A DNA stretch of 64,000 bases, taken from Flavobacterium sp. KACC 22761 (lineage in GTDB: Bacteria > Bacteroidota > Bacteroidia > Flavobacteriales > Flavobacteriaceae). Made by a program: the position numbers and the translations under genes. The notes beneath the pieces were generated by a model. That model searched no databases, was not told the origin of the DNA, and saw nothing but the letters and a program-made list of their open reading frames with translations. Below are positions 15,870-43,269 of the stretch, piece by piece; within the stretch, counting starts at the first letter, position 1; each line of letters starts with the position of its first letter. Location of the stretch: contig NZ_CP139148.1 in assembly GCF_034058155.1 (NCBI RefSeq), positions 2,542,001 through 2,606,000 of the forward strand, written 5' to 3'.

Positions 15870-15908
15870 CAAAAACAAAAAAAGCTTCAAGTATTCTTGA
15901 AGCTTTTT
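15870..15908 (-). terminator. Terminator of the minus-strand peptidoglycan-utilisation operon
   Basis: AAAGCTTCAAG / CTTGAAGCTTT, an 11-bp perfect stem with a 4-nt loop; on the minus strand it is followed by a long T-rich run. It marks the likely end of the susC-to-nagX transcript. Confidence 0.9.
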
Positions 15909-15961
15909 AAATAACTAACACAAACAGAAATTTAAATTTGCTTATCGTTACGCAGTAACTT

Positions 15962-17233
15962 TTAAACTTTAAAAATCAGTTTCTTTTTATAGAAAATCCA
16001 CAAAATAATAGACCAGAAAACGGCATACAACAAAGCATAAGCCAGCGATGCATTCAATGGGTTTTCGAAACATGGAGCGAGTCCGTGTTTATAGATATAA
16101 GTTTGAAAGCTGATTTCTTCTCCAGCAGTTTCTGGATTGGCAATTTTTATAGCGCTTAAAACTCTCGGAATTATTCCAGAAAAGAAAAATACAATCATTG
16201 GGTTTACGCCCCAAATCAAGAACAATTTGGTCCATTTCTTGTATCCTTGAATATCGATTATGTAATATAAAATCGTTAAACAGATTGTCGCAATTCCGGC
16301 CGTATATAAAACGTAAGAACTTGTCCAAAGCGATTTGTTGATAGGGAAAAAGATGTTCCAAAACAAACCTCCAATTAATAAAACGGTTCCTGTAATAGCC
16401 GTTTTTTTCACAATTTCGATTTTGTCAATTGACAAGTTCAAAAGCTGTCCAATGTACATTCCTAAAATTCCAGTTCCGATTGCAGGCAACGTACTCAAAA
16501 TTCCTTCCGGATCCCAAGTTTTAGACGATGCCCATAAATGACCGTTTAAAAGTGTATCGTCGATCCAAGCAGCTAAATTTGTTCCTTTGTCGAAATTCGC
16601 AGTGCCAAATCCCGGAACGGGAACAAAAGCCATCAAAAGCCAATATCCAATTAATAGTGTCGCTAAAACTAAAAGTTGTGTTTTTAAATTTGTCTTTAAA
16701 TACAAAATAGAGGTGAAGAAATACACAATTGCAATTCGCTGCAAAACGCCCGGAATTCGTGTATCTTCAAAATGTTCCAAGCCACTAAAAGCTAGAGAAA
16801 GCAATAGGATGAAAATTCCAACTGCAAGAATGGTTTTCACTTTCATTGAAAAGTTTCCTAATAGTGCATAAGCAACTCCAAAAGCAATAACCAATCTCAC
16901 GCCTAACAACGGAATTCCTTCTAAACCAAATAAATGAATTCTGCTGAAAATGCTTAAAAACAATCCCAAACAGAAAATTCGAAGTGAGCGAACTAAGATT
17001 TTATTGAAAGTACTTCCGTCAAACTGTTTTACGGGCATTGCGAAAGGTATTGCAGTTCCCATTATAAAAACGAAAAACGGGAAAACTAAATCGGTAGGAG
17101 TACAGCCGTGCCATTCAGCGTGTTCTAAAGGCGCATAAATAGAATCCCAGCTTCCTGGATTATTGACAATCGTCATTAAGAAGATGGTAAATCCTCTAAA
17201 GACATCGAGTGAGGTTAAACGTTCTTTTGTCAT
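15962..17233 (-). CDS. DUF5009 / heparan-alpha-glucosaminide N-acetyltransferase-like membrane protein (NagX-like)
   Basis: 423 residues with about eleven transmembrane helices. It opens with LTSLDVFRGFTIFLMTIVN and HGCTPTDLVFPFFVFIMG, the hallmark of the HGSNAT/DUF5009 group. Members called NagX are repeatedly found in N-acetylglucosamine catabolic operons; whether they acetylate amino sugars across the membrane or transport them is unresolved. It is the last gene of the minus-strand operon, 83 bp after the NagZ-fusion gene and just before the terminator, which supports an amino-sugar role. Confidence 0.82.
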   Translation of the reverse strand: MTKERLTSLDVFRGFTIFLMTIVNNPGSWDSIYAPLEHAEWHGCTPTDLVFPFFVFIMGTAIPFAMPVKQFDGSTFNKILVRSLRIFCLGLFLSIFSRIHLFGLEGIPLLGVRLVIAFGVAYALLGNFSMKVKTILAVGIFILLLSLAFSGLEHFEDTRIPGVLQRIAIVYFFTSILYLKTNLKTQLLVLATLLIGYWLLMAFVPVPGFGTANFDKGTNLAAWIDDTLLNGHLWASSKTWDPEGILSTLPAIGTGILGMYIGQLLNLSIDKIEIVKKTAITGTVLLIGGLFWNIFFPINKSLWTSSYVLYTAGIATICLTILYYIIDIQGYKKWTKLFLIWGVNPMIVFFFSGIIPRVLSAIKIANPETAGEEISFQTYIYKHGLAPCFENPLNASLAYALLYAVFWSIILWIFYKKKLIFKV

Positions 17234-17237
17234 TGGG

Positions 17238-17316
17238 TTTTATGGTTTATGGTTGATAGTTTATGGTTGATGGTTTGGAGTTTATAGTTTGGAATTTGGA
17301 ATTTAAAATTTGGAGT
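17238..17316. repeat. Degenerate short tandem repeat between nagZ-fusion and nagX-like genes
   Basis: About 80 bp of imperfect GTTTATGGTTGAT-like and GGAATTTGGA-like units. It reads as low-complexity slipped repeats and fills the whole intergenic gap inside an otherwise compact operon. Confidence 0.6.
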
Positions 17317-20310
17317 TTATTTGATAATTGCATCTTGAATTATCTGTTGAATTTCTTCTCTGATTTTTCCTTTGGCTAATTTATTTTCATCGTTAACTAC
17401 TTCTGGATACGTTCTGTTGGATAAGAAAACATAAACAATTTCGGTTTCTGGATCTGCCCAAGCCATGTTTCCTGTAAAGCCTGTGTGCCCAAAACTTGTT
17501 TCAGAAACACAATCGCAAGTTGGCCCGCCTTTGTGGACTCTTTTATCAAATCCTAAACCTCTTAATACACCTTGATTTTTGTAATAGCAAGTATTAAAAG
17601 CATCAAAAGTTTGAGGAGAAAAATATTGAATGCCACCGTAATTTCCCTTCTGTAAATACATTTGCATCATTTTAGCAACATCCATACTGTTCGAAAAAAT
17701 TCCAGCGTGACCTGCAACGCCACCTTCCATTGCTGCCGCCATATCGTGTACATAACCTTGAATGACCTGATGTCTGAAATAATTATCAATTTCAGTTGGC
17801 GCAATATTGCTTTTGTCAAATTTGTCTAAAGGATTGTAGAGCGTATAGGTCATTCCTAATGTGCTGTAGAAATTTTCTTTACTCAAATCTTCCAGTTTTT
17901 TATGTGTTTTTCTTTCTAAATATTCTTTCAGAATGATAAAAGTAAAATCGCTGTATTTGTATTCTTTTTTAGGAGAAACAGGACTTTTGGCAATTATTTT
18001 CATGATTGTGTCATGATAGTCATTTCGAAGGTAAAGGCTGTCAGCTACTTTTGTTGTGAAACCATTCTCAGCTATTTTTCGATAGTATTTTTGAGAAGGT
18101 TTAGTATTAGCATCTAAAGTTGCTTTGTAAAACGGAATCCAGGCTTGAAGGCCAGCATAATGATTCAGCAAATCTTTGAAAGTGATATTTTCTTTGTTTG
18201 TTTTAGCAAAAAACGGCACCATATCTTTTAGTTTGGTGTCCAGCGTTACTTTGTTTTTATCGTACAATTGCATCACATTTGGCAGAGTCGAAATCATTTT
18301 TGAAATCGAAGCCACGTCATATAAATCTGAATTGGTTACTGTTTTCCCGTTGTCATAAGTTTGAGTTCCATACGATTTCTGAAAAATTACGCTTCCTTTT
18401 CTTGCCACTAAAACCTGCATTCCTGGTGTCATTTTTCCGTCAATTGCTTTTTGTGCTACAGCATCAATTTTAGACAAAATAGCTGGATTCATATTTACAT
18501 TTTCTGGAGCTGTAAATGCTAATCGATTTAGTTTTTCTGTAGTTAGACCATCATTTACATGAAAAGCATCATTAATCGAAACAGGCAGTTTTCCTTTAGC
18601 TTCAATGGCTCCAAAAAGCAATTCTGCAGAAACTACTTGGCTAATATCCGAGTTTTGGTAGGAAACTACTAAACCTTCAATATCATCAAAGTTATCAATT
18701 GACAGAAGTGAATACGGTTTGGCAAAAACATCCAAAATCACTCTGTTGTGCTTTGCAATTTCTTTCAGCCAAAGCATTTCTTGTAGCGTGAATTCTTGTT
18801 TTTCCCAAGGCTTATTTACTTTATGAAAGCTGATAATAACCTTGTCAAACTTTTTTAATTCACTATTCAAACTGTCAAGATTGGTGTCTTTAACTTCTGT
18901 AATATCAGTGTATTTTTTTAAAGTAGAAATGAAAGTGCTGTTGGTATCTTCACCCAATTTTACGTAAGCAATTTTTTCGCTTAAATCTTTTATTGGAAGT
19001 ACTTCTTTTTCATTTTTTAAAACGGTAATTGCATTTTCATACAATTTATAATGCAAAGCATCATTTTGCGTCGGATTCAAATCTTCATACAAATTATTTA
19101 AATCAATTGGTTTGTATTTGTTCAATCCTGCTTTGTATTTATAGTGCAATATTTTTTTTACAGAATGTGCTAGACGTTCTTCTGTAATTACTTTTTCGTT
19201 GTAAGCCACTTCTAGTTTTTGAAAAGCGACAGGCACATTTTCTGGGCAAAGCAAAATATCATTTCCAGCTAAAATTACGGCTATTTCCAAATCGCCTGGA
19301 CCTTTGAAATTAGCTGCGCCTTTCATCGCTAAACCATCAGTAAAAATCAATCCGTTGAAGGCTAATTCTTTTTGAAGCAGGTTCGTAACGACATTATAAG
19401 AAGCCGAAGAAGGACAATTTGGCTGTGATTCTAAACTCGGGATATTAAGATGCGCAACCATTACAGAAGCTAAACCTTCGTCGAATAATTTTTTGTATGG
19501 ATATAATTCTACCAATTCTAGTCTGTCTTTAGAAAAATTAACGGTAGGCAAAGCTTTATGCGAATCGGTTGAAGTGTCGCCATGTCCAGGAAAATGTTTT
19601 CCAGTGCAGAAAACGCCGTTTCCTTGAATTCCTTTCATCAAGGCAATCGCTTTTTCGCTTACGTTTACTTTATCTTCACCAAAAGAACGGTTTCCGATAA
19701 TTGGGTTTTTAGGGTTTGTATTAATATCTAAAACAGGAGCGAAGTTGAAATGAACACCGATTCTTTTGTTTTCGGTGGCCATATTTTTTCCCACTTTTTC
19801 AATTAAGCTCAAATCTTGAATCGCACCCAGAGTCATGTTCCAAGGATAACGATAAGTTGAATCCAAACGCATGGCTAATCCCCATTCGGCATCAATACCA
19901 ATCATCAAAGGAACTTTTGATTTTGATTGATACAAATTGGTCAATTTTGCCTGACGAACGGGTCCGCCTTGAAAGAAAATAACATTTCCTATTTTGTAAT
20001 CTTCAATAAGTTTGCTGATTTGATTAACGTGTGCAGAATCTTTATTAGAATAAGCAGAAACCATAAATAGCTGACCAATTTTTTCCTGAACCGTCATTTT
20101 GTTGTAAATGCTGTCGACCCAAGCCGTTTCCTGATCAGAATCTTTAAAGAATGTCTTTTTTTCAGCGGTATTTTTTTGGACATAAACAACCGTGTCCTTC
20201 AAAGGAATGCCTTTTTTGGAATCGGTTACGCTGTTTTTTTTAGAAGCACAATTGGTAATTAAAAATATAAAAGAGGCGTATAAACTGATTTTTATGAATG
20301 AATTTTTCAT
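17317..20310 (-). CDS. nagZ: NagZ-type GH3 beta-N-acetylglucosaminidase fused to an AmiE-like serine hydrolase
   Basis: 997 residues from the start at 20310, which creates a lipoprotein signal (FLITNCASKK); the in-frame ATG at 20355 is less likely. Residues about 60-390 are a GH3 domain with the NagZ signature KHFPGHGDTSTDSH, which carries the His/Asp pair used as acid-base. Residues about 420-600 form the GH3 C-terminal domain. Residues about 620-990 are a class-C beta-lactamase/serine hydrolase domain with SISK (S-x-x-K), YSD and HTG motifs. In Bacillus subtilis the neighbouring genes nagZ (ybbD) and amiE (ybbE) encode these same two activities, clipping GlcNAc and the peptide from MurNAc. 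The fusion joins both in one outer-membrane or periplasmic lipoprotein. Fusion of this type occurs in other Bacteroidota. Confidence 0.9.
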   Translation of the reverse strand: MKNSFIKISLYASFIFLITNCASKKNSVTDSKKGIPLKDTVVYVQKNTAEKKTFFKDSDQETAWVDSIYNKMTVQEKIGQLFMVSAYSNKDSAHVNQISKLIEDYKIGNVIFFQGGPVRQAKLTNLYQSKSKVPLMIGIDAEWGLAMRLDSTYRYPWNMTLGAIQDLSLIEKVGKNMATENKRIGVHFNFAPVLDINTNPKNPIIGNRSFGEDKVNVSEKAIALMKGIQGNGVFCTGKHFPGHGDTSTDSHKALPTVNFSKDRLELVELYPYKKLFDEGLASVMVAHLNIPSLESQPNCPSSASYNVVTNLLQKELAFNGLIFTDGLAMKGAANFKGPGDLEIAVILAGNDILLCPENVPVAFQKLEVAYNEKVITEERLAHSVKKILHYKYKAGLNKYKPIDLNNLYEDLNPTQNDALHYKLYENAITVLKNEKEVLPIKDLSEKIAYVKLGEDTNSTFISTLKKYTDITEVKDTNLDSLNSELKKFDKVIISFHKVNKPWEKQEFTLQEMLWLKEIAKHNRVILDVFAKPYSLLSIDNFDDIEGLVVSYQNSDISQVVSAELLFGAIEAKGKLPVSINDAFHVNDGLTTEKLNRLAFTAPENVNMNPAILSKIDAVAQKAIDGKMTPGMQVLVARKGSVIFQKSYGTQTYDNGKTVTNSDLYDVASISKMISTLPNVMQLYDKNKVTLDTKLKDMVPFFAKTNKENITFKDLLNHYAGLQAWIPFYKATLDANTKPSQKYYRKIAENGFTTKVADSLYLRNDYHDTIMKIIAKSPVSPKKEYKYSDFTFIILKEYLERKTHKKLEDLSKENFYSTLGMTYTLYNPLDKFDKSNIAPTEIDNYFRHQVIQGYVHDMAAAMEGGVAGHAGIFSNSMDVAKMMQMYLQKGNYGGIQYFSPQTFDAFNTCYYKNQGVLRGLGFDKRVHKGGPTCDCVSETSFGHTGFTGNMAWADPETEIVYVFLSNRTYPEVVNDENKLAKGKIREEIQQIIQDAIIK

Positions 20311-20382
20311 GTGATTTTTTTTAAAATCAAATTTGAATTTTAGCATCAAATCCAAATCGATTAATCAATATTGAAAAGCTGA

Positions 20383-21891
20383 TTAGAAGCTTATTTTGTC
20401 ACTCGTTTTGGAGCTTGTAATGTATAAACCTAAATACGTTATTAATCCGTTTAGTACGATTAATTCGTTATCAAAAACATATCCTGCAAAAAGCAATTTC
20501 GAGTTTTCATTTATTAGATAAGTGAAAAATGGTGATAACAAACAGATTATCGGTACGAGTTTGTCATGGACATTTCTAGATTTTTGGAACAAGCCAAAAG
20601 CATATAATCCTAGCAACGGCCCATAAGTGTACGAAGCGACTTTAAAGATCATTCCCACAACAGAACTGTCGTTTATTGCATTAAAAACCAAGATGATAAA
20701 AAACACTAAAACTGAGAAACTGATGTGTACTAAATGTCTAATTTTTACCGTGTTTTTTTTGTGACTGTTTTCTGCTTTGTCCATTCCTAAAAAGTCAACA
20801 CAGAAAGAAGTTGTTAAAGCTGTTAATGCCGAATCTGTAGTAGCAAAAGTGGCAGCAATGATTCCTAATAAAAAGACAATTGCAGGAATTAGCGCTAAAT
20901 GATTTAAGGCAATTTCTGGAAATAGTAAATCGGTTCTTGGTTTTCCTGTAACCAAATCAGTTGGAATTGAAATGCCGTTTTTGTTTGCGTAGATGTACAA
21001 AAGCGCTCCAACGCTCAAAAAGAAAATATTGATTACTACAAATATTCCTGTAAAAGTGAACATGTTTTTTTGCGCTTCGCCAATGTTTTTGCAGCTCAGG
21101 TTTTTTTGCATTAAATCCTGATCCAAGCCTGTCATGGCAATCGTTACAAACATTCCGCCTATAATTTGTTTTATGAAATGGAATTTGCTTCCCATAAAAT
21201 CATCGAAGAAAAATATCTTAGAATAATTGCTGTTTTTCACTTCTTCAAAAGCGCTGATGGCACTTAAATCCATTCGGTCGCAAATGAAATAAATGGTTAA
21301 GAAAACCGAAGTAACCAAGAAGAATGTCTGCAGAGTATCCGTAATAATAATCGTTTTTAGTCCGCCTCTGTACGTGTACGAGAAAATAAGCAATAAAGAA
21401 ATCAAAACGGTAAAAGCAAACGGAACATGATAGAAATCAAAGACAAAACGCTGTAAAACAATAACAACCAAATAAAGTCTGAATGCCGAGCTGATTGTTC
21501 TGCTGATCAGGAAAATAGAAGCCGCTGTTTTATAACTGAAAATACCCATTCTGTGCTCGATATAACTGTAAATCGAAGTCAGATTCATTCTGTAATACAG
21601 AGGCAGCAATAATTTTGTAATTACAATAAAACCGAGTGCGTTTCCTAAAACAAACTGAAAATATTTGAATTGTTCACCACTTGCTGCACCAACCTCGCCC
21701 GGAACCGATATGAAAGTAACTCCAGAAAGAGCCGTTCCAATCATCCCGAAAGCAACTAAATACCATTTTGAATTTTTATTGGCAGTAAAAAAAGCTTGAT
21801 TGCCGCTATCTTTCTTGCTTACTCTGTGCGAGATATAGAATAATGTTCCGAAATAAATGATAATTAAGAGAAGGATGGTGCTTGGTGTCAT
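20383..21891 (-). CDS. Sodium:solute symporter (SSS family), probable amino-sugar importer
   Basis: 502 residues with about 13 transmembrane helices. The SSS core is visible as MIGTALSGVTFISVPGEVG near residues 51-69 and SYTYRGGLKTIIITDTLQ near residue 180. The family moves sugars, amino acids or sialic acid with sodium. Placed between murQ and the nagZ fusion, it most likely brings MurNAc, GlcNAc or small muropeptide products across the inner membrane; this is inferred from position only. Because it is not a PTS transporter, its substrate would arrive unphosphorylated and need a kinase. Confidence 0.87.
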   Translation of the reverse strand: MTPSTILLLIIIYFGTLFYISHRVSKKDSGNQAFFTANKNSKWYLVAFGMIGTALSGVTFISVPGEVGAASGEQFKYFQFVLGNALGFIVITKLLLPLYYRMNLTSIYSYIEHRMGIFSYKTAASIFLISRTISSAFRLYLVVIVLQRFVFDFYHVPFAFTVLISLLLIFSYTYRGGLKTIIITDTLQTFFLVTSVFLTIYFICDRMDLSAISAFEEVKNSNYSKIFFFDDFMGSKFHFIKQIIGGMFVTIAMTGLDQDLMQKNLSCKNIGEAQKNMFTFTGIFVVINIFFLSVGALLYIYANKNGISIPTDLVTGKPRTDLLFPEIALNHLALIPAIVFLLGIIAATFATTDSALTALTTSFCVDFLGMDKAENSHKKNTVKIRHLVHISFSVLVFFIILVFNAINDSSVVGMIFKVASYTYGPLLGLYAFGLFQKSRNVHDKLVPIICLLSPFFTYLINENSKLLFAGYVFDNELIVLNGLITYLGLYITSSKTSDKISF

Positions 21892-21961: not shown

Positions 21962-22774
21962 TTATTTTTGTGCCTGTAAAACTGCTCGTACGCTTTTGTG
22001 TTTATGCAATAATTCTTCGGCTAAATCATATTCGATATCCAGCTCTTCCATGATCATTTTGATACCTCGTTTTACCAGTTTTTCATTTGAAAGCTGCATA
22101 TCAACCATTTTGTTGCCTTTCACTTTTCCTAATTTAATCATTACTGAAGTAGAGATCATGTTTAGGGTCAGTTTTTGAGCCGTTCCCGATTTCATTCTTG
22201 TACTTCCAGTTAAAAATTCTGGGCCTACAATTAATTCAATAGGATAATCTGCTTCTTGAGCAATAAGTCCATTGCTGATACAAGAAATACTTCCTGTTTT
22301 TACGTTGTGTTCTTTGGCTTTTTTCAGAGCTCCTAAAACATAAGGCGTGTTTCCAGAAGCCGCAATTCCGATAATGAAATCAAGACTTGAGATTTCAAAT
22401 TTTTCTAAATCTTTCCAAGCTTGCTCGGTGTCATCTTCAGCATTTTCAACTGCTTTTCTAATAGCAGTGTCGCCACCAGCAATAATTCCGATGATCATAT
22501 CATGTGGCACGCCAAAAGTCGGCGGACATTCTGATGCATCTAAAATTCCGATTCTTCCTGAAGTTCCTGCTCCAATATAAAATAATCGGCCACCCAATTG
22601 CATTTTCTTGACAATTGCTTTAACGAGTTTTTCAATTTTAGGAATTTGTTCTTCAATAATATTCGGTACTTTTTTGTCTTCTGTATTAATGTTTGTAAGA
22701 AGTTCTTTCACGCTCATTTGATCCAAATCTTTGTACAAAGATTCTTGTTCAGTTTCAGGATTTTTATTTTTCAT
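21962..22774 (-). CDS. murQ: MurQ, N-acetylmuramic acid 6-phosphate etherase
   Basis: 270 residues, cytoplasmic, slightly shorter than the roughly 300 residues of characterised enzymes. It has the SIS sugar-phosphate isomerase fold with the family-specific RLFYIGAGTSGRIGILDASE, followed by CPPTFG, and a later AGGDTAIRKAVENAEDD; the two glutamates in these blocks are the catalytic candidates. LTGSTRMKSGTAQK is also typical. MurQ cleaves the lactyl ether of MurNAc-6-P, giving GlcNAc-6-P and D-lactate. It is the key diagnostic enzyme of MurNAc catabolism. It lies in the operon 124 bp after namZ and 70 bp before the symporter. Confidence 0.95.
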   Translation of the reverse strand: MKNKNPETEQESLYKDLDQMSVKELLTNINTEDKKVPNIIEEQIPKIEKLVKAIVKKMQLGGRLFYIGAGTSGRIGILDASECPPTFGVPHDMIIGIIAGGDTAIRKAVENAEDDTEQAWKDLEKFEISSLDFIIGIAASGNTPYVLGALKKAKEHNVKTGSISCISNGLIAQEADYPIELIVGPEFLTGSTRMKSGTAQKLTLNMISTSVMIKLGKVKGNKMVDMQLSNEKLVKRGIKMIMEELDIEYDLAEELLHKHKSVRAVLQAQK

Positions 22775-33603: not shown

Positions 33604-34431
33604 ATGAAAAAATCAATTTACACCATCTTCTTGCTCTTTTTAGTTTTTACTGCGCAAGCTTCTAAAGTTGATACTCTGGAGGTTTTTAGTGCTTCAATGC
33701 AGAAAAACATCAAGACGTGTGTCGTGGTTCCAGACAATTACAAAAAGAGCAAAAAAGCTTTTCCGGTGGTTTATTTGCTTCATGGGCACAGTGGCAATTA
33801 TGCTACATGGGTAAAAGGTTTTAAGGAACTTGGAAAACAAGTAGATCAATACGGTTTTATTGTAGTTTGTGCTGACGGAAATTATTCAAGCTGGTATTTT
33901 GACAGTCCAATTGATCCGAGTTTTAAATACGAAACTTATGTTGTGAATGAGCTAGTTCTGTTTATTGATAAAAAATACAAAACCATTGCCGATCGAACAG
34001 GAAGAGCAATTTCGGGCTTGAGCATGGGCGGTCATGGCGCTTTGTATTTGTCATTCAGGCATCAAGATGTATTTGGTGCTGCAGGAAGTATGAGCGGAGG
34101 AGTTGATATTCGTCCGTTTCCCGACAAATGGGAGATCAAAAAACGATTAGGATCAATTACTGAATTTCCTGAAAATTGGAATCAAAACACGGTTACCAAT
34201 ATGCTCGATTTGGTAAAAGACAACAAATTAAAACTGATTATCGATTGTGGTGTTGACGATTTTTTCATGACCGTAAACAGGGAACTTCATGCAAAAATGT
34301 TGGCTTTAAAAATAAATCACGATTATATTGAGCGCCCAGGCGAACATAATCTTAAATACTGGGAGAATTCTTTAAAATATCAACTTTTGTTTTTTCACGA
34401 TTTCTTTAATGAAAATGTAAAAACAAAGTAA
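33604..34431 (+). CDS. Secreted alpha/beta-hydrolase esterase (esterase D / CE1-like)
   Basis: 275 residues with a signal peptide (MKKSIYTIFLLFLVFTAQA). VVYLLHGHSGNYATW supplies the oxyanion region, ISGLSMGGHGALYL contains the GxSxG nucleophile Ser, and RPGEHNLKYWENSL carries the catalytic His. This family includes S-formylglutathione hydrolases and feruloyl/acetyl esterases. In this locus it may remove O-acetyl or other ester groups from glycans, but that is inference. It starts 20 bp after the dehydrogenase stop, so the two are one transcript ending at the terminator at 34491. Confidence 0.85.
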   Translation: MKKSIYTIFLLFLVFTAQASKVDTLEVFSASMQKNIKTCVVVPDNYKKSKKAFPVVYLLHGHSGNYATWVKGFKELGKQVDQYGFIVVCADGNYSSWYFDSPIDPSFKYETYVVNELVLFIDKKYKTIADRTGRAISGLSMGGHGALYLSFRHQDVFGAAGSMSGGVDIRPFPDKWEIKKRLGSITEFPENWNQNTVTNMLDLVKDNKLKLIIDCGVDDFFMTVNRELHAKMLALKINHDYIERPGEHNLKYWENSLKYQLLFFHDFFNENVKTK

Positions 34432-34629: not shown

Positions 34630-36465
34630 ATGAAACATTTATTTTTCAGAATAGTATTGCTTTTTGCAATAGCAACTGGATTTTCGCAGAATGCAGAAAA
34701 AAAAGGAATTATAAAATTTGTACAACTTACAGACTTGCATGTTTCTGTGGGAAATGACAATGATTTTTTGTTGCAAAACATCGTAAAAGAAATCAACAAT
34801 TCGGACAATGAATTTGTAGTCGTAACCGGAGATTTAACCAATCGAGGTGCTGATGACGAATTAAAACAGGTTCATGCAATCCTTTCAAAATTAACAAAAC
34901 CGTATTATGTAATTTCGGGTAATCACGAGACGAACTGGAGCGAAAGCGCGGGACTTACTTATAAAAAGATATTTGGAGAAGATCGATTTGTATTTTCAAA
35001 GGGAGATTATCTTTTTATTGGATATCCATGCGGGCCATACATGAAAATGGGTGATGGTTTTGTAAAACACGAAGATGTACTTTGGTTAGATAAAACGTTG
35101 AAAGATAGTTTGAAAGGAAACAATAAAAAAGTACTCAATTTTGCTCATTATCCAATGGATAATAGTGTAAGCAATTATAAAGAAGTACTTTCTGTTTTGC
35201 AGAAATATCCAACTGTCGCGAGCTTTTGTGGTCACGGACATACTTTGAGAAAATATGATTTTTCTGGTTTGAGCGGTTTAATGGGAACTTCTATAACTTC
35301 GTTGGACGGTAAAACTCAAAGTTATAACGAATTAATTATCAGTAATGACAGTATCAGTATTTATCAAAAAGAAATTGATAAACCAGGTGTTTTCAAATTT
35401 TCTGTTCCGACAAAACCATCAAAAATTGAAATTCCCAAGGATGATTTTCCGGCAATTGGTCCTTTTTTGAAAGACGACGCTTCGATTTACAGTCTTCCTT
35501 CATTTGACAAAAAGAATTTTTATTTTGCGAATTCTCTAGGCGAAATAGAATCTGTAAATTTGAAAGACAAAAAAATAAATTGGAAAACAAAAACTGGAAA
35601 CGCCATTTATTTTTCGCCGACAATTGTGAAAAATAATCTCGTTGTTGGAACGATCGAAGGAAATCTTTTAGGATTTGATTCACAATCAGGAAAACAAAAA
35701 TGGAATATTGCTGTTGGAGGTGTTTTAGTGGGTTCTCCAATCGCCGAAAACAACAAGGTTTATACGGCAAGTTCGACTTCATTTGTTTGTGCAGATGCTT
35801 TGACCGGTAAGGTAATTTGGAAAAAAGAAATGCCACAGTCTTATTCTCAAGGAATACCTTTGATTCAGGGAGATAAAATCATTTTTGGGGTTTGGGATAC
35901 TTATGTGTATTGCTTAAATAAAAATACAGGAGAGTTAATTTGGAAATGGAATAATGGCAATGACAAACAAATTTTATATTCGGCTGGAAATGTAAATATG
36001 GTTTCGACAAAAAGCCGGCTTTATTTTGTGACACCACAGCGCTTTTTGACCATTTTGGATATTGAAACTGGAAAAACGCTTTTAAGAACTTCGAAGTGGA
36101 AAATTAGAGAATCGATGGGAAAAAGCCAGGACGGGAAATGGTTTTATGGCAAAACAATGGATGGATTGCTTTTAAGAGTGCCACTTTCTGATGATCTTGA
36201 ATTGACAGAAGAAAATGTAGAAAAACAAAGTAAAGTTTTGGATTTGAAATTAGGCTACGAACACAATCCAGCAGGAATTTTAGAAAAAGACAACAAAATC
36301 TACATCGGAAGCAGAAAAGGCGAAGTGATACTAGTCGATGCAGAAAAATTTGAAATCATAAAACAAATCACTTTAGGAAGTTCAAGTGTAAATGGTTTCA
36401 CAATTGATGCCCAAGGCAGAGTTTGGACTTCTCTAGTCGAAGGCGGGATTTATTTGTTAAATTAA
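34630..36465 (+). CDS. Secreted metallophosphoesterase with C-terminal PQQ-type beta-propeller
   Basis: 611 residues with a signal peptide (MKHLFFRIVLLFAIATGFSQ). Residues about 25-240 form a calcineurin-like phosphoesterase domain with the metal motifs QLTDLH, VVTGDLTNRG, SGNHET and CGHGHT. Residues about 270-611 are PQQ-like propeller blades (LKDKKINWKTKTGNAIYF, DALTGKVIWKKEMPQS, LNKNTGELIWKWNNG). The phosphatase would act in the periplasm or outside; the substrate is unknown. Its position at the head of a glycosidase unit suggests a phosphorylated cell-envelope component, but this is speculative. Confidence 0.85.
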   Translation: MKHLFFRIVLLFAIATGFSQNAEKKGIIKFVQLTDLHVSVGNDNDFLLQNIVKEINNSDNEFVVVTGDLTNRGADDELKQVHAILSKLTKPYYVISGNHETNWSESAGLTYKKIFGEDRFVFSKGDYLFIGYPCGPYMKMGDGFVKHEDVLWLDKTLKDSLKGNNKKVLNFAHYPMDNSVSNYKEVLSVLQKYPTVASFCGHGHTLRKYDFSGLSGLMGTSITSLDGKTQSYNELIISNDSISIYQKEIDKPGVFKFSVPTKPSKIEIPKDDFPAIGPFLKDDASIYSLPSFDKKNFYFANSLGEIESVNLKDKKINWKTKTGNAIYFSPTIVKNNLVVGTIEGNLLGFDSQSGKQKWNIAVGGVLVGSPIAENNKVYTASSTSFVCADALTGKVIWKKEMPQSYSQGIPLIQGDKIIFGVWDTYVYCLNKNTGELIWKWNNGNDKQILYSAGNVNMVSTKSRLYFVTPQRFLTILDIETGKTLLRTSKWKIRESMGKSQDGKWFYGKTMDGLLLRVPLSDDLELTEENVEKQSKVLDLKLGYEHNPAGILEKDNKIYIGSRKGEVILVDAEKFEIIKQITLGSSSVNGFTIDAQGRVWTSLVEGGIYLLN

Positions 36466-36489
36466 GTTTTTTTATTGCGCATGAAATTG

Positions 36490-36566
36490 CTCGCAAAGTC
36501 GCAGGGACACGCAAAGAAAAATAAAAGATTTAAAAATAAAACTTTGCGCTTTCGCGACTTTGCGAG
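36490..36566. repeat. Nested inverted repeat of the GCAAAG class
   Basis: CTCGCAAAGTCGC (36490-36502) pairs with GCGACTTTGCGAG (36554-36566), and inside it CGCAAAG (36510-36516) pairs with CTTTGCG (36542-36548). It shares the GCAAAG / CTTTGC composition and nested design of the element at 8316-8546. It lies between two same-strand genes, in the leader of the GHL10 gene. Confidence 0.75.
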
Positions 36567-36633
36567 ATTTAAAAATAAAGATGAGTTAAAAAAACTTTGC
36601 GAACATAGCGTAACTGTACACAACCATATTATT

Positions 36634-38115
36634 ATGAAAAGCATAAAAATTATAATTCTAGTTTTGCTGATTCATGCCAAAATCTTCAGTCAGCAATCTC
36701 CAAAAAGAGAAATGCGCGCCGCGTGGATTTCTACAGTAGAAAATATCGACTGGCCGTCTAAACCCGGTTTGTCAGATAAAGAAATGAAAGCCGAAATGAT
36801 TACACTTTTGGATAATCTACGTTCGTATAATCTGAACACTGTAATTTTTCAAATTCGCCCAACTGCCGATGCTTTTTACAAATCGACAAAAGAGCCAGCT
36901 TCGCATTGGATAACCGGAACTCAAGGCGTTGCGCCAGGCTTTGATCCGTTGCAAATGATGATTGATGAAGCAGGAAAACGTGGCATGAACGTGCATGTTT
37001 GGCTGAATCCGTATCGTGTTCAGAAAGACACTGTTAGAGATGTGCTTTCAAAAAATCATTTATATTTTAAGAGACCAGACCTTTTCCTGACATATGGAAA
37101 AACGAGATATTTTAATCCAGGCTTACAAGAAACCAGAGATTTTGTCGCTTCTGTTGTAGGTGAAATTGTTCGTAAGTATGATATTCAGGCCGTTCATATG
37201 GATGATTATTTTTATCCGTATAAAATTGCGGGACAAGAATTTCCAGACGAAAAAGCATTTGCGAAAGAACCGCGCCAATTTAAAGACAAAGACGATTGGA
37301 GAAGAGACAATGTCGATTTAATCATCAAACAAATCAGAGATACGATTATTGCCAATAAACCAGAAGTTGAATTCGGAATTTCGCCTTTTGGAGTTTGGAG
37401 AAATAGTGCCAAAGATTCTGAAGGTTCTAAAACTACTGCGGGAGCTACAAATTATGATGATTTGTATGCCAATATCTTAAAATGGCAAAAAGAAAACTGG
37501 ATTGATTATGTAACGCCGCAAATATATTGGCACATTGGTTTTGACAAGGCAAATTTTGAAGTTTTGGCAAAGTGGTGGGCCGAACATAAATTCGGAGCAA
37601 ATGTTTATGTGGGACATGGCGAATACAAAATTTCAACTACTGCCAAAGAACCAGAGTGGAGAAGCCCTGATCAAATCGTAAAACAAATTGAAATGATTCG
37701 CAAATTCCCTCAAATTGAAGGTTCGATGCACTTTACAGCTTCCAATTTTCTGAAAAAAGGTGATACGTTACGACAGCCTTTACTCCAAAAAGAATACAAA
37801 TATATCGCTTTGACTCCCGAAGCAAACAGAATTACAAGATTAAAGCCTGAAAAGCCTACAAATGCTGTGATTGCAAAAAAAGGCGACAAAGCAATTTTGA
37901 CTTGGAAACCTGCAGTTAACGACAAGAAATATGTGATTTACAGATTTCCAAAAGGAAAAATAACTGATTTCTCAAATCCATCAACTATTTATTATGTGAC
38001 AACAGCTCTAAAACTGGAAGTTCCAAATGCTAATTTGGAAAATTATGTTTACGCGCTCACCGCTTTGAGTCAAACCCAGACAGAAAGCAGTCCCATAGAA
38101 TTTACAGTAAAATAA
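36634..38115 (+). CDS. GHL10-family glycosidase (DUF187, DigH/YngK-like)
   Basis: 493 residues from ATG 36634, which gives a signal peptide (MKSIKIIILVLLIHAKIFSQ); the upstream in-frame ATGs lie in the repeat element and are not credible. Residues about 25-335 are a TIM-barrel GHL10 domain (REMRAAWISTVENIDWPSK, HVWLNPYRVQ, AVHMDDYFYPYK, FGISPFGVWRN, DYVTPQIYWH). The last ~90 residues look like a fibronectin-III domain. E. coli DigH of this family cleaves peptidoglycan glycan strands lacking peptides. This fits the neighbouring amino-sugar genes. GH20 follows 11 bp downstream. Confidence 0.87.
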   Translation: MKSIKIIILVLLIHAKIFSQQSPKREMRAAWISTVENIDWPSKPGLSDKEMKAEMITLLDNLRSYNLNTVIFQIRPTADAFYKSTKEPASHWITGTQGVAPGFDPLQMMIDEAGKRGMNVHVWLNPYRVQKDTVRDVLSKNHLYFKRPDLFLTYGKTRYFNPGLQETRDFVASVVGEIVRKYDIQAVHMDDYFYPYKIAGQEFPDEKAFAKEPRQFKDKDDWRRDNVDLIIKQIRDTIIANKPEVEFGISPFGVWRNSAKDSEGSKTTAGATNYDDLYANILKWQKENWIDYVTPQIYWHIGFDKANFEVLAKWWAEHKFGANVYVGHGEYKISTTAKEPEWRSPDQIVKQIEMIRKFPQIEGSMHFTASNFLKKGDTLRQPLLQKEYKYIALTPEANRITRLKPEKPTNAVIAKKGDKAILTWKPAVNDKKYVIYRFPKGKITDFSNPSTIYYVTTALKLEVPNANLENYVYALTALSQTQTESSPIEFTVK

Positions 38116-38126: not shown

Positions 38127-40628
38127 ATGAGAAAAAGTATTCTCCTAATTGCCTTATTTCTAAGCTCATTAAGTTTTGTACAAGCCCAAAAATTAGATAT
38201 AATTCCGAAACCAGTTTCAGTGCAACAAAATTCCGGACAATTGGTTTTGCCTTCAGTATTAAAAGTTGTTGTAGATAAAAAACTAAAAAATAGTGCCGAT
38301 TATATTTCGGCAAGCATTTCAAAAAATACCGGAATTAATCCAATTGTTTCCCTTGGAAAAAAACATGGAAAAAATGCGATTTCATTTTTAGTAGATAAAA
38401 AATTAGAGCTTCCAAATGAAGGTTATCAATTAGACATAAACGAAAAAGGGATTTTCGTAAAAGGGAAAACTACAAATGGAGTCTTAAACGGACTTCAGAC
38501 TTTAGCTCAAATTTGTTCTGCAAAAGAAGTTAAAAAAGGAACCGTTCCGTTTGTGAAAATTGAAGATTATCCTCGTTTTGATTGGCGCGGTATGATGCTC
38601 GATTGTTCGCGACAATTTTTTGACAAACAAACTGTCAAGAATTATATCGATTGGTTGGCAGCTCATAAAATGAATGTTTTTCATTGGCATTTAACCGATG
38701 ACAACGGTTGGAGAATCGAAATAAAATCAATGCCCGATTTAACTTTAAAAGGCGCTTGGAGAGGTCCTGGAGAAGTTTTATTGCCATCTTACGGCTCAGG
38801 AGACAAACGTTACGGAGGTTTTTATACGCAAGAAGATATTAAGGAAGTAGTGGCTTATGCCGCTAATCGTGGCATTTCAGTTATGCCAGAACTTGAAATT
38901 CCGGGGCACTCGCGTGCAGTAACGGCTTCATATCCAGAAATTGGGTGCGAAATTAGCCAGGAACTTAAAAGTGTTCAAGGCGAAGTAAAAAATGTTTGGT
39001 GCGTTGGACGTGAAGAAAATTATGATATTTTGGATTCGATCATTAGAGAAGTTTCGGGATTATTTCCTTTTGAATATATTCATGTGGCGGGCGACGAAGT
39101 CAATCGTGCAAATTGGGAGCATTGTCCAAAATGCCAAGCTCTGATGGCAAAAGAAGGTTTTACAGACAGTTTTCAGCTTCAGAATTATTTCTTTAAAAGA
39201 GTTCAAAAAATTGTAGACAAATACCATAAAAAAACAGACGGCTGGAATGAAATCTTGAAAGGTGGAGAAGTCAACCCAAATACGTTGATTTCGGCTTGGC
39301 AAGGAATTAATTACGGAATTGAATCTGCTAAAAAAGGATACAAAACCATTATGATGCCGGGACAATTTTTGTATTTTGACATGGCACAATCTGAAACAGA
39401 ACGCGGTCATCGCTGGGCGGCAATCACCGATACAAAGCACGCTTATTCGTTTGAGCCAATTCCAGATTCGGATTTAACGGCGGAAGAACAAAAAAATATA
39501 ATTGGAGTTCAAGGTGCATTGTGGAGCGAATATTTGGATCGTCCGGCGAGAATTATGGAATACCAAAGTTATCCGAGAATTACGGCTTTGTCTGAAATGG
39601 GCTGGTCTAAAAAAGAAGATAAAAACTGGGATGATTTTTACGGAAGATTAACCAACAGTCATTTAAAAAGATTGGCCGATATGGGAATTGCTTTTAGAGA
39701 TTTTCCTCCAACGGCAATTTATAAAAACGGAACAATTACAGTGACGCCACCTTATGAAGGCGCGATTGTAAGATTTGATAAAGATGGAAATGAGCCCACA
39801 AGACAATCGCCTTTGTACACAGGACCAATTCAAACGAAAGATTACGAACAGTATAGATTTAGGGTTTTCTTTAATGAAACTTCGGCAAGTCCTGCAGTGA
39901 AAGTGGAGAAATTGCCTGTTGCAACCTGGAATACAGCTAAAGCCGAGGTTTTAACCATTTCAGAAAATATATCAGAACATGTTGATAAAAAGGGAATTTG
40001 GTATTTGAATTTTAATCCGACTGATGACGGCGCAAACGGAACAATTAAAAATGTTTCTCTTTTTGAAAATGACAAACTATTGCAGGCTTATTCAGACGAA
40101 AAAGCTTTGAGATCAAAACCGCGTTTGAGATTTTTGATTGAAAATTACAACGAAAAAAACACCTACAGATTAGATTTTACTGTTGAAAACAAAGAAGAGA
40201 GAAAATCTGCAGCAAATGTAAAATTCATTTGTTCACCGTATCAGGAACCAGAAGTTAAAGTAACTTCATCAATGGCAGAAAATACGAAGTTTCCAATTGC
40301 GAATCTGCAAGATTATAATGAAGAATCGTATATGCGCACTGATGTTGCCTGCAAAGATGGCGATTGGATTTTATATACCTTTACTACTCCTGTAATTTCT
40401 TCTAAAATTGATGTTTTAAGCGGCATTCCGCATCATCCGAGATTTATCATAAACAACGGTTATGTTGAGTTTTCATACAACGGAATTGATTTTATAAAAG
40501 GCGATAATTTTGATTACGGAAATGCATCAATTTATCCGAAACAGCCTGTAAAAGCAGTTAGAATAAAAATTACAGGAACCAATAATGAGCCTTTGATGGC
40601 AGGGCAGGACTTAAAAATTAATCCATAG
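38127..40628 (+). CDS. GH20 beta-N-acetylhexosaminidase with C-terminal discoidin-like domain
   Basis: 833 residues with a signal peptide (MRKSILLIALFLSSLSFVQA). Residues about 20-140 are the GH20 N-terminal domain; 150-500 the catalytic barrel with FHWHLTDDNGWRIEIK, MPELEIPGHSRA and HVAGDEVNRANW, in which the Asp-Glu pair performs the substrate-assisted mechanism. Then comes a chitobiase-like C-terminal region, and from about 690 an F5/8 type C (discoidin)-like carbohydrate-binding domain. The enzyme releases GlcNAc/GalNAc from glycan ends. It is coupled closely with GHL10 upstream (11 bp) and the serine hydrolase downstream (4 bp). Confidence 0.92.
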   Translation: MRKSILLIALFLSSLSFVQAQKLDIIPKPVSVQQNSGQLVLPSVLKVVVDKKLKNSADYISASISKNTGINPIVSLGKKHGKNAISFLVDKKLELPNEGYQLDINEKGIFVKGKTTNGVLNGLQTLAQICSAKEVKKGTVPFVKIEDYPRFDWRGMMLDCSRQFFDKQTVKNYIDWLAAHKMNVFHWHLTDDNGWRIEIKSMPDLTLKGAWRGPGEVLLPSYGSGDKRYGGFYTQEDIKEVVAYAANRGISVMPELEIPGHSRAVTASYPEIGCEISQELKSVQGEVKNVWCVGREENYDILDSIIREVSGLFPFEYIHVAGDEVNRANWEHCPKCQALMAKEGFTDSFQLQNYFFKRVQKIVDKYHKKTDGWNEILKGGEVNPNTLISAWQGINYGIESAKKGYKTIMMPGQFLYFDMAQSETERGHRWAAITDTKHAYSFEPIPDSDLTAEEQKNIIGVQGALWSEYLDRPARIMEYQSYPRITALSEMGWSKKEDKNWDDFYGRLTNSHLKRLADMGIAFRDFPPTAIYKNGTITVTPPYEGAIVRFDKDGNEPTRQSPLYTGPIQTKDYEQYRFRVFFNETSASPAVKVEKLPVATWNTAKAEVLTISENISEHVDKKGIWYLNFNPTDDGANGTIKNVSLFENDKLLQAYSDEKALRSKPRLRFLIENYNEKNTYRLDFTVENKEERKSAANVKFICSPYQEPEVKVTSSMAENTKFPIANLQDYNEESYMRTDVACKDGDWILYTFTTPVISSKIDVLSGIPHHPRFIINNGYVEFSYNGIDFIKGDNFDYGNASIYPKQPVKAVRIKITGTNNEPLMAGQDLKINP

Positions 40629-40632
40629 AAAT

Positions 40633-41937
40633 ATGAAAAATATAGTGAACAAGATTGTAGCGATCTGCTTAATTTCGTTAAGCATAAACAGTTATTCTCA
40701 AGAGAATTCTAAGAAATCTTTTGATGTTAAACGAAATCAAGTTTATATCGATTCAATGATGACCAACGCGCTTGAAAAAGGCTTTTTTCCAGGAGCACAA
40801 ATTATTGTTGGAACAGGAGATTCTAATTTGATAATCAAAAATTATGGCTATCATGATTATACTAAAAAACAAAAGGTAAAATCAGATGATGTTTTTGATT
40901 TGGCTTCGATGTCTAAAGTTTTAGGAGCAACACTTGTTACAATGCGTTTGGTTGGAGATGGAAAAATCAAACTTACAGATCAAGTAGGTGAAATTGTTCC
41001 AATGTACAAAAATACAGCGATTTCCGATTTAACGCTTTTTGAGTTGCTGACGCATACTTCTGGACTAACGCCAAGCATTACTTTTTATCAGGCGTTGCTT
41101 TCTACACCAGATAATTCGCCTTTGTTGAGCAATCAAAAATCAGAGCAATATCCACAGCAATTTGATAATATGTTTGTCAACAAAAACATTGTTTATGATT
41201 CAAAATATCTTGTTTTTCAGCCGAAAGAAAATTGGATTCAGATTTATAAAAACATGTGGCTGAATCCAGAATTTTATCCATCGGTTTATGAAAGGATTGC
41301 GAAAGCAAATACAAATCCGAGAGGAAAATATTTGTACAGTGATTTAAATTTGCTTTTGGTAAAACAAATGATCGAAACCAAAACTGGAAAGAAATTAGAT
41401 CAGCTGACAAATGAAATTTATACGCAATTAGGCATTTCAAAAATTGGATATAATCCACTAAAATGGACTTCTATAGATAATGTAATGCCAACGGAAGTAG
41501 ATAATTTTTTCAGAAAAGACACCATCAAAGGTTATGTGCATGATGAAGCGGCAGCTATTTTTGGAGGCGTTTCGGGAAATGCAGGTTTATTTGCAAATGC
41601 CGAATCAATTGCTGTAATCTGCAAAATGCTAATGAATAACGGAAATTATAAAGGAAAACAAATTCTAAAAGCCAAAGTTGTAAAAGAGTTTACAGAATCG
41701 CCACTCGCTAAAGAAGGCATTTACCGCGGTTTAGGTTTTGACAAAAGAAAACCAGATGAGTTTTTTACAAAAGATGATTTTGGACATACCGGTTTTACGG
41801 GAACATTTTTCTTTATGAATCCAAACACAAATCGATTTGTAGTTATTCTGACAAATCGCGTAAACCCAACCCGAACAAACAGATTGATGTATAAAGATGA
41901 TTTTAGTGCTAAAATCTGGAGGCAAATTAATAAGTAA
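40633..41937 (+). CDS. Secreted serine hydrolase, class C beta-lactamase family (AmiE-like)
   Basis: 434 residues with an N-terminal signal peptide. Catalytic motifs are SMSK (S-x-x-K, about residue 94), YSD (about 237) and HTG (about 380). The C-terminal part (RGLGFDKR then FGHTGFTG) is clearly related to the C-terminal domain of the NagZ fusion on the other strand, so the locus carries a fused and a free copy. B. subtilis AmiE of this family is a MurNAc-L-alanine amidase; an esterase or D-peptidase role is possible. ATG is only 4 bp after the GH20 stop, so the two are translationally coupled. Confidence 0.87.
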   Translation: MKNIVNKIVAICLISLSINSYSQENSKKSFDVKRNQVYIDSMMTNALEKGFFPGAQIIVGTGDSNLIIKNYGYHDYTKKQKVKSDDVFDLASMSKVLGATLVTMRLVGDGKIKLTDQVGEIVPMYKNTAISDLTLFELLTHTSGLTPSITFYQALLSTPDNSPLLSNQKSEQYPQQFDNMFVNKNIVYDSKYLVFQPKENWIQIYKNMWLNPEFYPSVYERIAKANTNPRGKYLYSDLNLLLVKQMIETKTGKKLDQLTNEIYTQLGISKIGYNPLKWTSIDNVMPTEVDNFFRKDTIKGYVHDEAAAIFGGVSGNAGLFANAESIAVICKMLMNNGNYKGKQILKAKVVKEFTESPLAKEGIYRGLGFDKRKPDEFFTKDDFGHTGFTGTFFFMNPNTNRFVVILTNRVNPTRTNRLMYKDDFSAKIWRQINK

Positions 41938-41953
41938 AAAAGTTTTTTTTTTC

Positions 41954-42067
41954 GCCACGACTCGAGCGATAGCGAACAGGCGAAGCAATTCACGAATTAT
42001 TGAAAAATAATATGTGTAATTATGGGATTTTTATTTACACAAATTAGCAAAATTTAATTCGTGAATT
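41954..42067. repeat. Intergenic inverted repeat of the AATTCACGAATT class
   Basis: AATTCACGAATTA (41987-41999) pairs with TAATTCGTGAATT (42055-42067); inside, TGTGTAA (42013-42019) pairs with TTACACA (42035-42041). A GC-rich flank (CGCCACGACTCGAGCGATAG) starts at 41954. It has the same nested architecture as the other two repeats but different sequence, and separates the serine hydrolase from nagA. Confidence 0.7.
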
Positions 42068-42132
42068 TGTGGACAAAGAAGAGGAATTACTTTTGAGGAA
42101 GCTCAAATTAGTATAAAATAAATTTAAGTAAA

Positions 42133-43269
42133 ATGAAACAAGCCATTATCAATGCAGTCGTTCACACAGGAGAGGAAATAATCAATAATGGAGTTATTGT
42201 TGTTGAAAATGGAAAAATTCTTTCAATTCAAAATGAAATTCCAACTGCCATTGAAACCCTTGATTTGAAGGGAAAACATATTGCATCAGGTTTTATTGAT
42301 ATTCAAATAAATGGAGGAGAAAGGCTTTATTTCAGCCAAACTCCAACGGAAGAAGCAATTCAGGATATTTATGATGCTAGTCGCAAATATGGAACAACGC
42401 AGGTGCTTCCGTGTTTGATATCATCTTCAAATGAAACTATTCTGCAAGGAATTGAGGCTGTTCGCAATTATCGAGCAAAATACGATAATGGTGTAATCGG
42501 AATGCATTTAGAAGGGCCATTTTTGAATCCGTTACGAAGAGGCGCGCACAGTATCGATCAGGTTCGAAAACCTACAAACAAAGAGCTTGAAGAAATTATC
42601 AAATACGGGAGAGATGTTATAAAAGTCATCACGATTGCTCCAGAATGTTTTACAGAAGAACAGCTTGAGATGTTGCTGGAAAGCGGTATAGTAATTTCGA
42701 TTGGGCATTCGACAATTTCGTATAACGAAGCACAGCCTTATTTTGCAAAAGGAATTAAACTGGTAACACATTTGTTTAATGCGATGACTCAATTTGGGCA
42801 TCGCGAACCGGGTTTAGTTGGTGCGTCTTTGGAAAATGAAAATGTATTTACACCCGTTATTTTAGATGGTTCGCATTGCGATTATGCCGCGGCAAGATTA
42901 GCGTATAAACTTAAGCAAGATAAGTTCTTTTTGATTAGTGATGCCACATTTTTAGGACGAAAAGTGACCAACTTCAATTGGGACAATTTTGATGCTCATC
43001 TTGACAATGGATTTTACAGAAATAAAGACGGCAATTTGGCTGGAGCATCGATCTCGATGTTAGAGGCGGTGCAAAATGCCCACAATCATTTGAATGTTTC
43101 TGTTGATGAAGCGCTGAAAATGGGATCTTCTCGCGTGGCAAATGCAATTGGTTTAGGAGATAAATACGGAAAAATAAAAACTGGATTTCCAGCCACTTTT
43201 GTCAAATTCGATGATGATTTATCTGAGATAGAAACTTTTGATTTTCTTAATACCAATCGGTTATTATGA
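42133..43269 (+). CDS. nagA: NagA, N-acetylglucosamine-6-phosphate deacetylase
   Basis: 378 residues, cytoplasmic amidohydrolase. SGFIDIQINGGERLYFS matches the NGCGG region of single-metal NagA enzymes. MHLEGPFLNP carries the metal-binding Glu, ISIGHSTISYNEA and LVTHLFNAM the two His ligands, and ISDATF the catalytic Asp. It converts GlcNAc-6-P to GlcN-6-P and acetate, i.e. the next step after MurQ. It is the last recognisable gene of the amino-sugar locus and is separated from the serine hydrolase by the inverted repeat. Confidence 0.95.
   Translation: MKQAIINAVVHTGEEIINNGVIVVENGKILSIQNEIPTAIETLDLKGKHIASGFIDIQINGGERLYFSQTPTEEAIQDIYDASRKYGTTQVLPCLISSSNETILQGIEAVRNYRAKYDNGVIGMHLEGPFLNPLRRGAHSIDQVRKPTNKELEEIIKYGRDVIKVITIAPECFTEEQLEMLLESGIVISIGHSTISYNEAQPYFAKGIKLVTHLFNAMTQFGHREPGLVGASLENENVFTPVILDGSHCDYAAARLAYKLKQDKFFLISDATFLGRKVTNFNWDNFDAHLDNGFYRNKDGNLAGASISMLEAVQNAHNHLNVSVDEALKMGSSRVANAIGLGDKYGKIKTGFPATFVKFDDDLSEIETFDFLNTNRLL

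Follow-up and report, generated by a model that had tools for sequence, protein, structure and literature searches.

The stretch of DNA analyzed here, referred to as the window, is 64,000 nucleotides long and spans positions 2,542,001 to 2,606,000 of contig NZ_CP139148.1, from a single-contig Flavobacterium genome of 5.04 Mb. From 15962 to 43269 it holds 15 genes in two divergent arms, which together resemble a locus for the use of peptidoglycan sugars that includes a SusC-SusD (SusCD) pair and a DeoR-family regulator. Genes were called from open reading frames (ORFs) combined with Pfam and NCBIfam profile searches, all assignments of function are predictions from sequence, and signal sequences were judged by eye. 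Coordinates of features are positions in the window, those prefixed C1 refer to the contig of this genome, and L numbers label fetched loci and regions. The original prediction had described a divergent locus for utilization of N-acetylmuramic acid (MurNAc) and N-acetylglucosamine (GlcNAc); every gene that it named was found at its coordinates, its boundaries proved correct, and two plus-arm genes absent from its list, an esterase and a metallophosphoesterase, were added. ThuA, encoded just beyond the minus-strand end, is common only to L001 among the loci examined, so that a boundary at the NagX-like gene is sound.

The minus-strand arm begins with SusC, a TonB-dependent transporter (26121..29420; TIGR04056, 813 bits) whose start codon is probably downstream of the listed TTG, and the SusD lipoprotein (24353..26089; PF07980 and PF14322); both are of type A1 of the exchangeable cassette described below. 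These are followed on the same strand by NamZ (22899..24092; NamZ_N, 8e-85, and NamZ_C), a GH171-type exo-N-acetylmuramidase with a likely signal peptide and the only NamZ in the genome. Glycoside hydrolase family 171 is, we take it, the NamZ family, and ybbC of Tannerella forsythia is presumably NamZ. Next come the MurNAc-6-phosphate (MurNAc-6P) etherase MurQ (21962..22774; TIGR00274, 322.6 bits, above the cut-off of 302) and an SSS-family symporter (20383..21891; PF00474), a candidate importer of MurNAc and/or GlcNAc. The top solved match of the symporter is 5nv9, a putative sodium:solute symporter (7e-27), and it adjoins AnmK or MurQ in L141, L145 and L173. The next ORF (17317..20355) encodes a GH3 N-acetylglucosaminidase, NagZ, fused to an AmiE/PBP4B-like beta-lactamase-fold domain; its top solved match is YbbD/NagZ 3bmx (6e-62), it has an apparent lipoprotein signal, and GH3 and SxxK motifs are present. 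The arm ends with a NagX/MurT-like membrane protein of the HGSNAT/DUF5009 family (15962..17233; PF16401; HGSNAT structures, 1e-21), which did not qualify as the glucosamine N-acetyltransferase NagX in NCBIfam (177 bits with NF046061, under the cut-off of 480).

The plus-strand arm opens with the DeoR-family regulator (29636..30385; PF00455 and PF08220) and an FAD/4Fe-4S D-2-hydroxyacid dehydrogenase (30606..33584), identified by profile and solved-structure matches and proposed to be a D-lactate dehydrogenase (DLD). Then come the PF00756 esterase (33604..34431; Pfam/NCBIfam), which possibly acts in sugar O-deacetylation, and the calcineurin-like metallophosphoesterase with a BamB-like propeller (34630..36465; Pfam), homologues of which, at 30-32% identity, lie near MurQ in L127, L128 and L130; our guess is that these two enzymes would remove wall decorations. 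GHL10, a predicted DigH/Cwp19-like glycan-strand hydrolase (36475..38115; PF02638), matches the wall hydrolase Cwp19 (5oq2) at 1e-91 and probably starts downstream of the listed start codon; it has a plain signal peptide and is the sole strand-cutting candidate of the locus. The arm is completed by a GH20 beta-hexosaminidase (38127..40628; PF00728, 4e-111), a second AmiE/PBP4B-like protein, AmiE2 (40633..41937; PF00144), and the GlcNAc-6-phosphate (GlcNAc-6P) deacetylase NagA (42133..43269; TIGR00221, 293 bits, above the cut-off of 225.65). One relative, L064, carries the run GH20-AmiE2-NamZ-MurQ-NagZ-AmiE. Motifs that we take to be of catalytic type were seen in NamZ, NagZ, both AmiE-like domains, MurQ, GH20 and NagA. 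From the signal sequences, NamZ, NagZ-AmiE, GHL10, GH20 and AmiE2 would be exported from the cytoplasm, with MurQ and NagA staying in it. The locus has the adjacent SusC and SusD of a polysaccharide utilization locus (PUL), with GH3 and NamZ downstream on the same strand and, at the level of sequence, one conserved site ahead of both arms; a surface endo-acting enzyme, usual but not universal in PULs, was not recognized among the 15 genes with Pfam.

Relatives of the locus were collected as 80 loci fetched with NamZ, of which 31 have SusCD (SusCD loci) and 49 do not (NamZ-only loci); the 31 include close relatives and are not independent. The closest named relative among them is F. zhairuonense, with a NamZ 97% identical to that of the window. 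SusC, NamZ, MurQ, SSS, NagZ-AmiE, NagX and DeoR occur together in 27 of the 80, all from Flavobacterium or close kin and again non-independent; in one of these 27, L020, the NagZ match is a 611-residue ORF only. The linkage of SusCD with NamZ and MurQ that had been proposed as a synteny check was thus recovered, and the linkage of the locus genes is not due to chance. NamZ was found in 286 and MurQ, above its cut-off, in 204 of 296 sampled Bacteroidota genomes; as both are common across the phylum, the presence of either alone means little, and their linkage to SusCD is the informative part.

Alignment of the SusC-DeoR intergenic regions gave a single well-kept block, TGCGTTATTTTGCGTTA, which in the window lies upstream of SusC (29483..29499, minus strand). 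A second operator-like site, TACATTATTTTGCGTTA, a two-mismatch copy of TGCGTTATTTTGCGTTA, lies between DeoR and the dehydrogenase (30448..30464, minus strand). When the genome was searched with a pattern that allowed A or G at two positions and at most one mismatch, these two sites were the only matches in 5.04 Mb. A reversed control pattern also gave two matches in this genome, and in 121 Flavobacterium genomes there were 83 site matches to 27 for the reversed control; both results weigh against the proposed regulon, as does the absence of the site, at up to three mismatches, from 20 kb around each of this genome's own AnmK-AmpG, second MurQ, NagB-GH20 and kinase genes. Since the control count equals the site count within the genome, the counts alone are weak, and it is placement that matters. 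The site is found upstream of SusC in 29 of the 31 SusCD loci, whatever their SusCD type, L020 and L024 being without it, and at up to two mismatches there are 85 matches in the 31 loci (671 kb; some inside DeoR) and a single match in the control set of 29 of the 49 NamZ-only loci (393 kb). In two split loci, L039 and L026, copies stand ahead of both SusC and MurQ. In 9 of the 121 genomes the sites come in pairs 894-965 bp apart, and all nine pairs lie within 9 kb of an SSS gene; among the 53 genomes with any site match, 24 have one within 20 kb of an SSS gene. The sites are putative DeoR operators. A shared operator-like site ahead of each arm supports the earlier proposal of one divergently transcribed locus, which would be under one regulator and would have SusCD inside the regulon. 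A third, weak match between NamZ and MurQ (22824-22840; three mismatches, opposite orientation) was not taken as a site; L005 has a weak match that resembles it. In L024, where no site was matched, SusD is split into two ORFs of 215 and 332 amino acids.

The SusCD pair occupies a fixed slot in these loci and falls into three types: A1, which is window-like, A2 (about 62% identity in SusC and 65% in SusD), and B (24-31% in SusC), which in L015 has a PF12771-type SusD and a third, lipoprotein-like ORF. A core tree was built from five core proteins of 27 of the 31 SusCD loci (14 of type A1, 8 of A2 and 5 of B); L026, L042, L043 and L046 were left out, although L042 has all core genes. Of the 24 inner branches of this tree 12 are starred, and it has one long row, L024. 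By parsimony the types change 10 times on the core tree, where 2 is the minimum possible and shuffled labels give a mean of 11.3, and 8 to 11 times on four single-gene trees. The starred branches alone require at least 5 changes for A1, at least 4 for A2 and at least 3 for B, and A2 as a single clade was rejected on the core tree by the AU test (p=2e-63). The clearest pair is L003 and L004, in which six flanking proteins are 96-100% identical, with SusC at 62% and SusD at 65%; when their DNA is compared in bins of 250 bases, identity falls from 87-98% in the flanks to 60-76% over SusC and SusD, with immediate recovery. The same drop separates L008 from L006, with its edge inside the start of SusC. 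Differences between the types start after about residue 100 of SusC, and the exchange edges lie near the SusC start and the SusD end. The two genes have thus been swapped together, repeatedly and between relatives, at a conserved site where most of the other genes have stayed in place.

An old split of the types, passed on by descent, would account for them without any exchange, and some observations lean that way: the core genes may themselves recombine, MurQ falls into two classes (75% and 95%), and as many inner branches of the core tree lack a star as bear one. We regard this as highly improbable in view of the number of changes, on single-gene trees and starred branches as well as on the core tree, of a distribution barely more clustered than that of shuffled labels, of the rejected A2 clade, and of the confinement of the L003/L004 difference to just two genes. 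Why the pair is exchanged is a different matter. It is conceivable, at a little short of even chances, that SusCD is under diversifying selection and is traded as a cassette behind the conserved operator-like site while much the same enzymes are kept, either matching different peptidoglycan chemistries or escaping phages or toxins that use the importer. If so, the locus would be a natural allele series for what a peptidoglycan importer recognizes. RagAB of Porphyromonas gingivalis is a SusCD-type pair present as divergent alleles at one locus; in contrast to that case, the exchange described here is between species, in environmental flavobacteria and at a peptidoglycan locus.

A MurQ-type pathway for MurNAc comprises the etherase, assigned above, and a source of MurNAc-6P, either a kinase or a phosphotransferase system, for which the genome offers two candidates, both outside the locus: a MurK-type kinase and AnmK (2809.6 kb, above cut-off). 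The kinase candidate, of 283 residues, is encoded at C1:4924.5 kb, flanked by ORFs that look like gap and mgsA; its best solved matches are 1zxo (5e-46), then T. forsythia MurK 8ow9 (2e-42) and K1058 8ow7 (3e-36), and its homologues adjoin MurQ in L127, L128 and L135. Also elsewhere in the genome are two copies of NagB and a second MurQ (C1:3279261). One NagB (C1:3129500-3135000, L094) lies with a GHMP-type kinase, a nucleotidyltransferase-like gene and a transporter of the major facilitator superfamily, as read from the ORFs.

MurQ releases D-lactate, and in engineered Corynebacterium glutamicum grown on MurNAc, lactate accumulates (PMC6165865). The FAD/Fe-S protein falls within the glycolate/D-lactate/D-2-hydroxyglutarate group; the profiles named no substrate for it above cut-off, the best NCBIfam match, also below cut-off, being D-2-hydroxyglutarate dehydrogenase YdiJ. 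Its neighborhoods are more telling. The genome holds exactly two full-length copies, one at the locus and one about 4 kb from an AnmK-GHL10-AmpG cluster; in L127, of a distant family, a homologue lies between NamZ and the NagX-kinase-MurQ genes, and in L133 one stands beside NamZ and NagB. Because these neighbors are peptidoglycan-sugar genes, we read the enzyme as the D-lactate step; it probably oxidizes the D-lactate of MurQ. The region C1:2806500-2817600 (L092) has the AmpG-GHL10-AnmK cluster, with the second dehydrogenase about 4 kb away.

The order of genes in L127 (SpoIID/LytB, AmpG, NamZ, DLD, NagX-like, kinase, MurQ, AmiE-like) also bears on transport. The NagX-like protein of the window is 35% identical to the L127 protein encoded between the dehydrogenase and the kinase-MurQ pair, and the operon of T. 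forsythia runs lytB, ampG, ybbC, murT, murK, murQ (PMC5388701). Since the NagX-like protein of L127 occupies the MurT slot of that operon, transport is as likely a role as N-acetylation, and by this analogy the NagX-like protein may serve in MurNAc transport. There are thus two candidates for the inner-membrane MurNAc transporter, the SSS symporter and the NagX/MurT-like protein, the latter by operon slot alone. A relationship by homology between NagX and T. forsythia MurT was dropped, as no Tannerella name was found among the 120 matches listed, most of which are nameless.

The gene content, the conserved linkage, the conserved site pair and the exchange of SusCD as a unit are computed observations. 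The two arms probably form a regulon under DeoR for taking in soluble fragments of peptidoglycan, own or foreign, and burning their amino sugars. MurNAc-containing material is indicated as the target because NamZ and MurQ are MurNAc-specific families encoded in one operon with SusCD. In the scheme that we propose, each substrate, each direction of transport and each reaction in vivo is predicted from sequence. SusCD would pull muropeptides or short glycan strands across the outer membrane. Once in the periplasm, these would lose their peptides to the AmiE-like domains, GHL10 would cut the denuded strands, and GlcNAc would be released by NagZ and GH20 and MurNAc by NamZ. Inward transport of the free sugars would fall to the SSS symporter and the NagX/MurT-like protein, and the MurK-type kinase encoded elsewhere would form MurNAc-6P. 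MurQ would convert this to GlcNAc-6P and D-lactate, NagA and then NagB, also encoded elsewhere, would lead to fructose-6P, and the FAD/Fe-S dehydrogenase would oxidize the D-lactate. The earlier view is thus supported in part: a MurNAc-directed divergent locus with SusCD in its regulon is borne out, and the fragments may be foreign, as it suggested, or shed by the cell itself.

A number of observations weigh against such a regulon. Within the locus, Pfam recognized no lytic enzyme, whether at the surface or secreted, that would act on intact sacculi, and no peptidase for stem peptides. The kinase candidate has as its closest solved relative an uncharacterized protein (1zxo), falls under the Pfam BadF cut-off (24.9 vs 31.5 bits) and has no NCBIfam match. 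NamZ usually stands alone in 34 hand-picked NamZ windows, which partly overlap the 80 loci (e.g. L104, L005), in a survey that detects only relatives of its own query set. In the 13 windows from the same genus the full block was present in 5, NamZ was alone in 7, and a second NamZ lay by the plus arm in 1 (L105); 17 of the 21 from other genera had no other query gene, and the remainder were L127 and L128, of one genus, with NamZ within a MurQ cluster, L110, with MurQ about 16 kb off, and L123, with a weak 22% GH3 match. Six MurQ windows included a variant of the locus with SusCD in another genus of the same family (L133), three with MurQ alone, one with GHL10, phosphoesterase, MurQ and SSS (L130) and one with a kinase adjoining MurQ (L135). 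SSS was alone in 37 of 40 windows, hand-picked from 97 matches and all at 70-82% identity, so that this locus is under-represented among them. At 70% identity or more SSS is present in 89 of the 121 Flavobacterium genomes, and hence need not serve SusCD. NamZ and SSS were both rejected as markers of the locus for their habit of standing alone. Finally, several relatives have recycling genes (AnmK, GHL10 or AmpG) within the locus itself; among the relatives, profiles were run on AnmK and the beta-lactamase only in L009, on AmpG only in L024 and on the type B SusD only in L015.

The last observation fits recycling of the cell's own wall, in which SusCD would recover self-shed muropeptides as the main source and the locus would be a periplasmic recycling system with the same chemistry. 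The lack of a recognized external lytic enzyme and the many lone NamZ and SSS genes are likewise compatible with it. The genome, however, has a second MurQ and a separate AnmK-GHL10-AmpG cluster, which makes the SusCD-linked genes look additional, and recycling in other bacteria runs, to our knowledge, without TonB-dependent import; we consider own-wall recycling as the main role possible but somewhat doubtful. Less probable still, and in our view unlikely, is a general locus for GlcNAc glycans (chitin oligosaccharides, N-glycans) with the MurNAc genes as side equipment. GH20, NagA and GH3 do act on GlcNAc glycans too, and solved relatives of SusD are uninformative, by sequence, about its ligand, but NamZ, MurQ and two AmiE-like domains are without known use in chitin breakdown. 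At another site the genome carries a SusC-SusD-NagB-GH20 locus, an order that we take to be chitin-type, and this weakens a reading as chitin alone, although the NagB of that locus is 90% identical to the NagB beside DeoR in L009. A GH3-beta-lactamase fusion, RmNag3, is active on chitooligosaccharides (PMC6987092).

Uptake of soluble peptidoglycan fragments under DeoR control, the reading that we prefer, has partial parallels in known systems. In Bacillus subtilis, NagZ and AmiE rescue muropeptides outside the cytoplasm, taking off GlcNAc and then the stem peptide, and NamZ and MurQ are linked to them; here, in contrast, NagZ and AmiE are fused, and an outer membrane and SusCD are present. The B. 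subtilis pathway is also cited in PMC6987092. The same source describes RmNag3 of Rhodothermus marinus, a GH3 N-acetylglucosaminidase which, like the Flavobacterium fusion, has a C-terminal beta-lactamase domain and a signal peptide; RmNag3 is reported to be without adjacent glycoside hydrolase genes, whereas the Flavobacterium fusion sits in a PUL-like regulon. The closest match to a tested system is the ampG-ybbC-murTKQ operon of T. forsythia, in which NamZ (YbbC), a MurNAc transporter, MurK and MurQ act on external muropeptides (PMC5388701, PMC7670621, PMC10465942). That operon is under GppX and its legend includes no SusCD; the Flavobacterium locus is probably regulated by DeoR, has its kinase encoded outside it and includes SusCD, NagZ-AmiE and DLD as well. 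A murein PUL has been predicted from sequence in the Urechidicola symbiont of Idas mussels (PMC10199937), with SusCD, deoR, a sodium co-transporter annotated nis, murQ, nagB and glycoside hydrolases 3, 18, 171 and 10. It differs in having two SusCD pairs and ampG, ampD, ycgG and dacA inside; no D-hydroxyacid dehydrogenase appears in the figure legend, and no operator or SusCD exchange in the text available. As a prediction, therefore, a SusCD-murQ-GH171 locus is not new. As far as the open-licence literature shows, three features are new: the paired sites, a SusCD exchange that keeps to one place, and the linkage of the dehydrogenase to peptidoglycan-sugar genes; no test of a SusCD for muropeptides and no report of SusCD exchange in flavobacteria was found in that literature.

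Bacterial cell walls make up a large pool of nutrients, and how muropeptides enter through the outer membrane of Bacteroidota is not settled in the open-licence literature. The locus names, in one organism, a candidate importer, a likely regulator and operator, and a step that probably uses the D-lactate of MurQ, and the repeated exchange of SusCD in a conserved site provides ready-made natural variants for mapping importer specificity.

Several minor observations were made at the edges of these loci. Downstream of NagA, the window encodes a leucine-rich protein with a type IX secretion sorting domain (43348-44964). In L105 (9300-17000), the second NamZ adjoins AmiE2-GH20-GHL10 of the plus arm, at the place taken by NagA in the window. 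The lone NamZ (9280) of another Flavobacterium, in L097, has an rRNA operon (12790-17869) some 2 kb away, and such proximity may be the reason that many NamZ contigs break off 1.5-2.7 kb from the gene. A contig labelled as a Bifidobacterium breve metagenome-assembled genome (L028) has a NamZ 74% identical to that of the window and is probably mis-binned or mislabelled. In L009, the NagX-like gene is followed by a gene for a class D (OXA-type) beta-lactamase (19854-20717) that does not reach the family cut-off; ORFs of similar size are present in L010, L011 and L016, only the L009 gene having been profiled.

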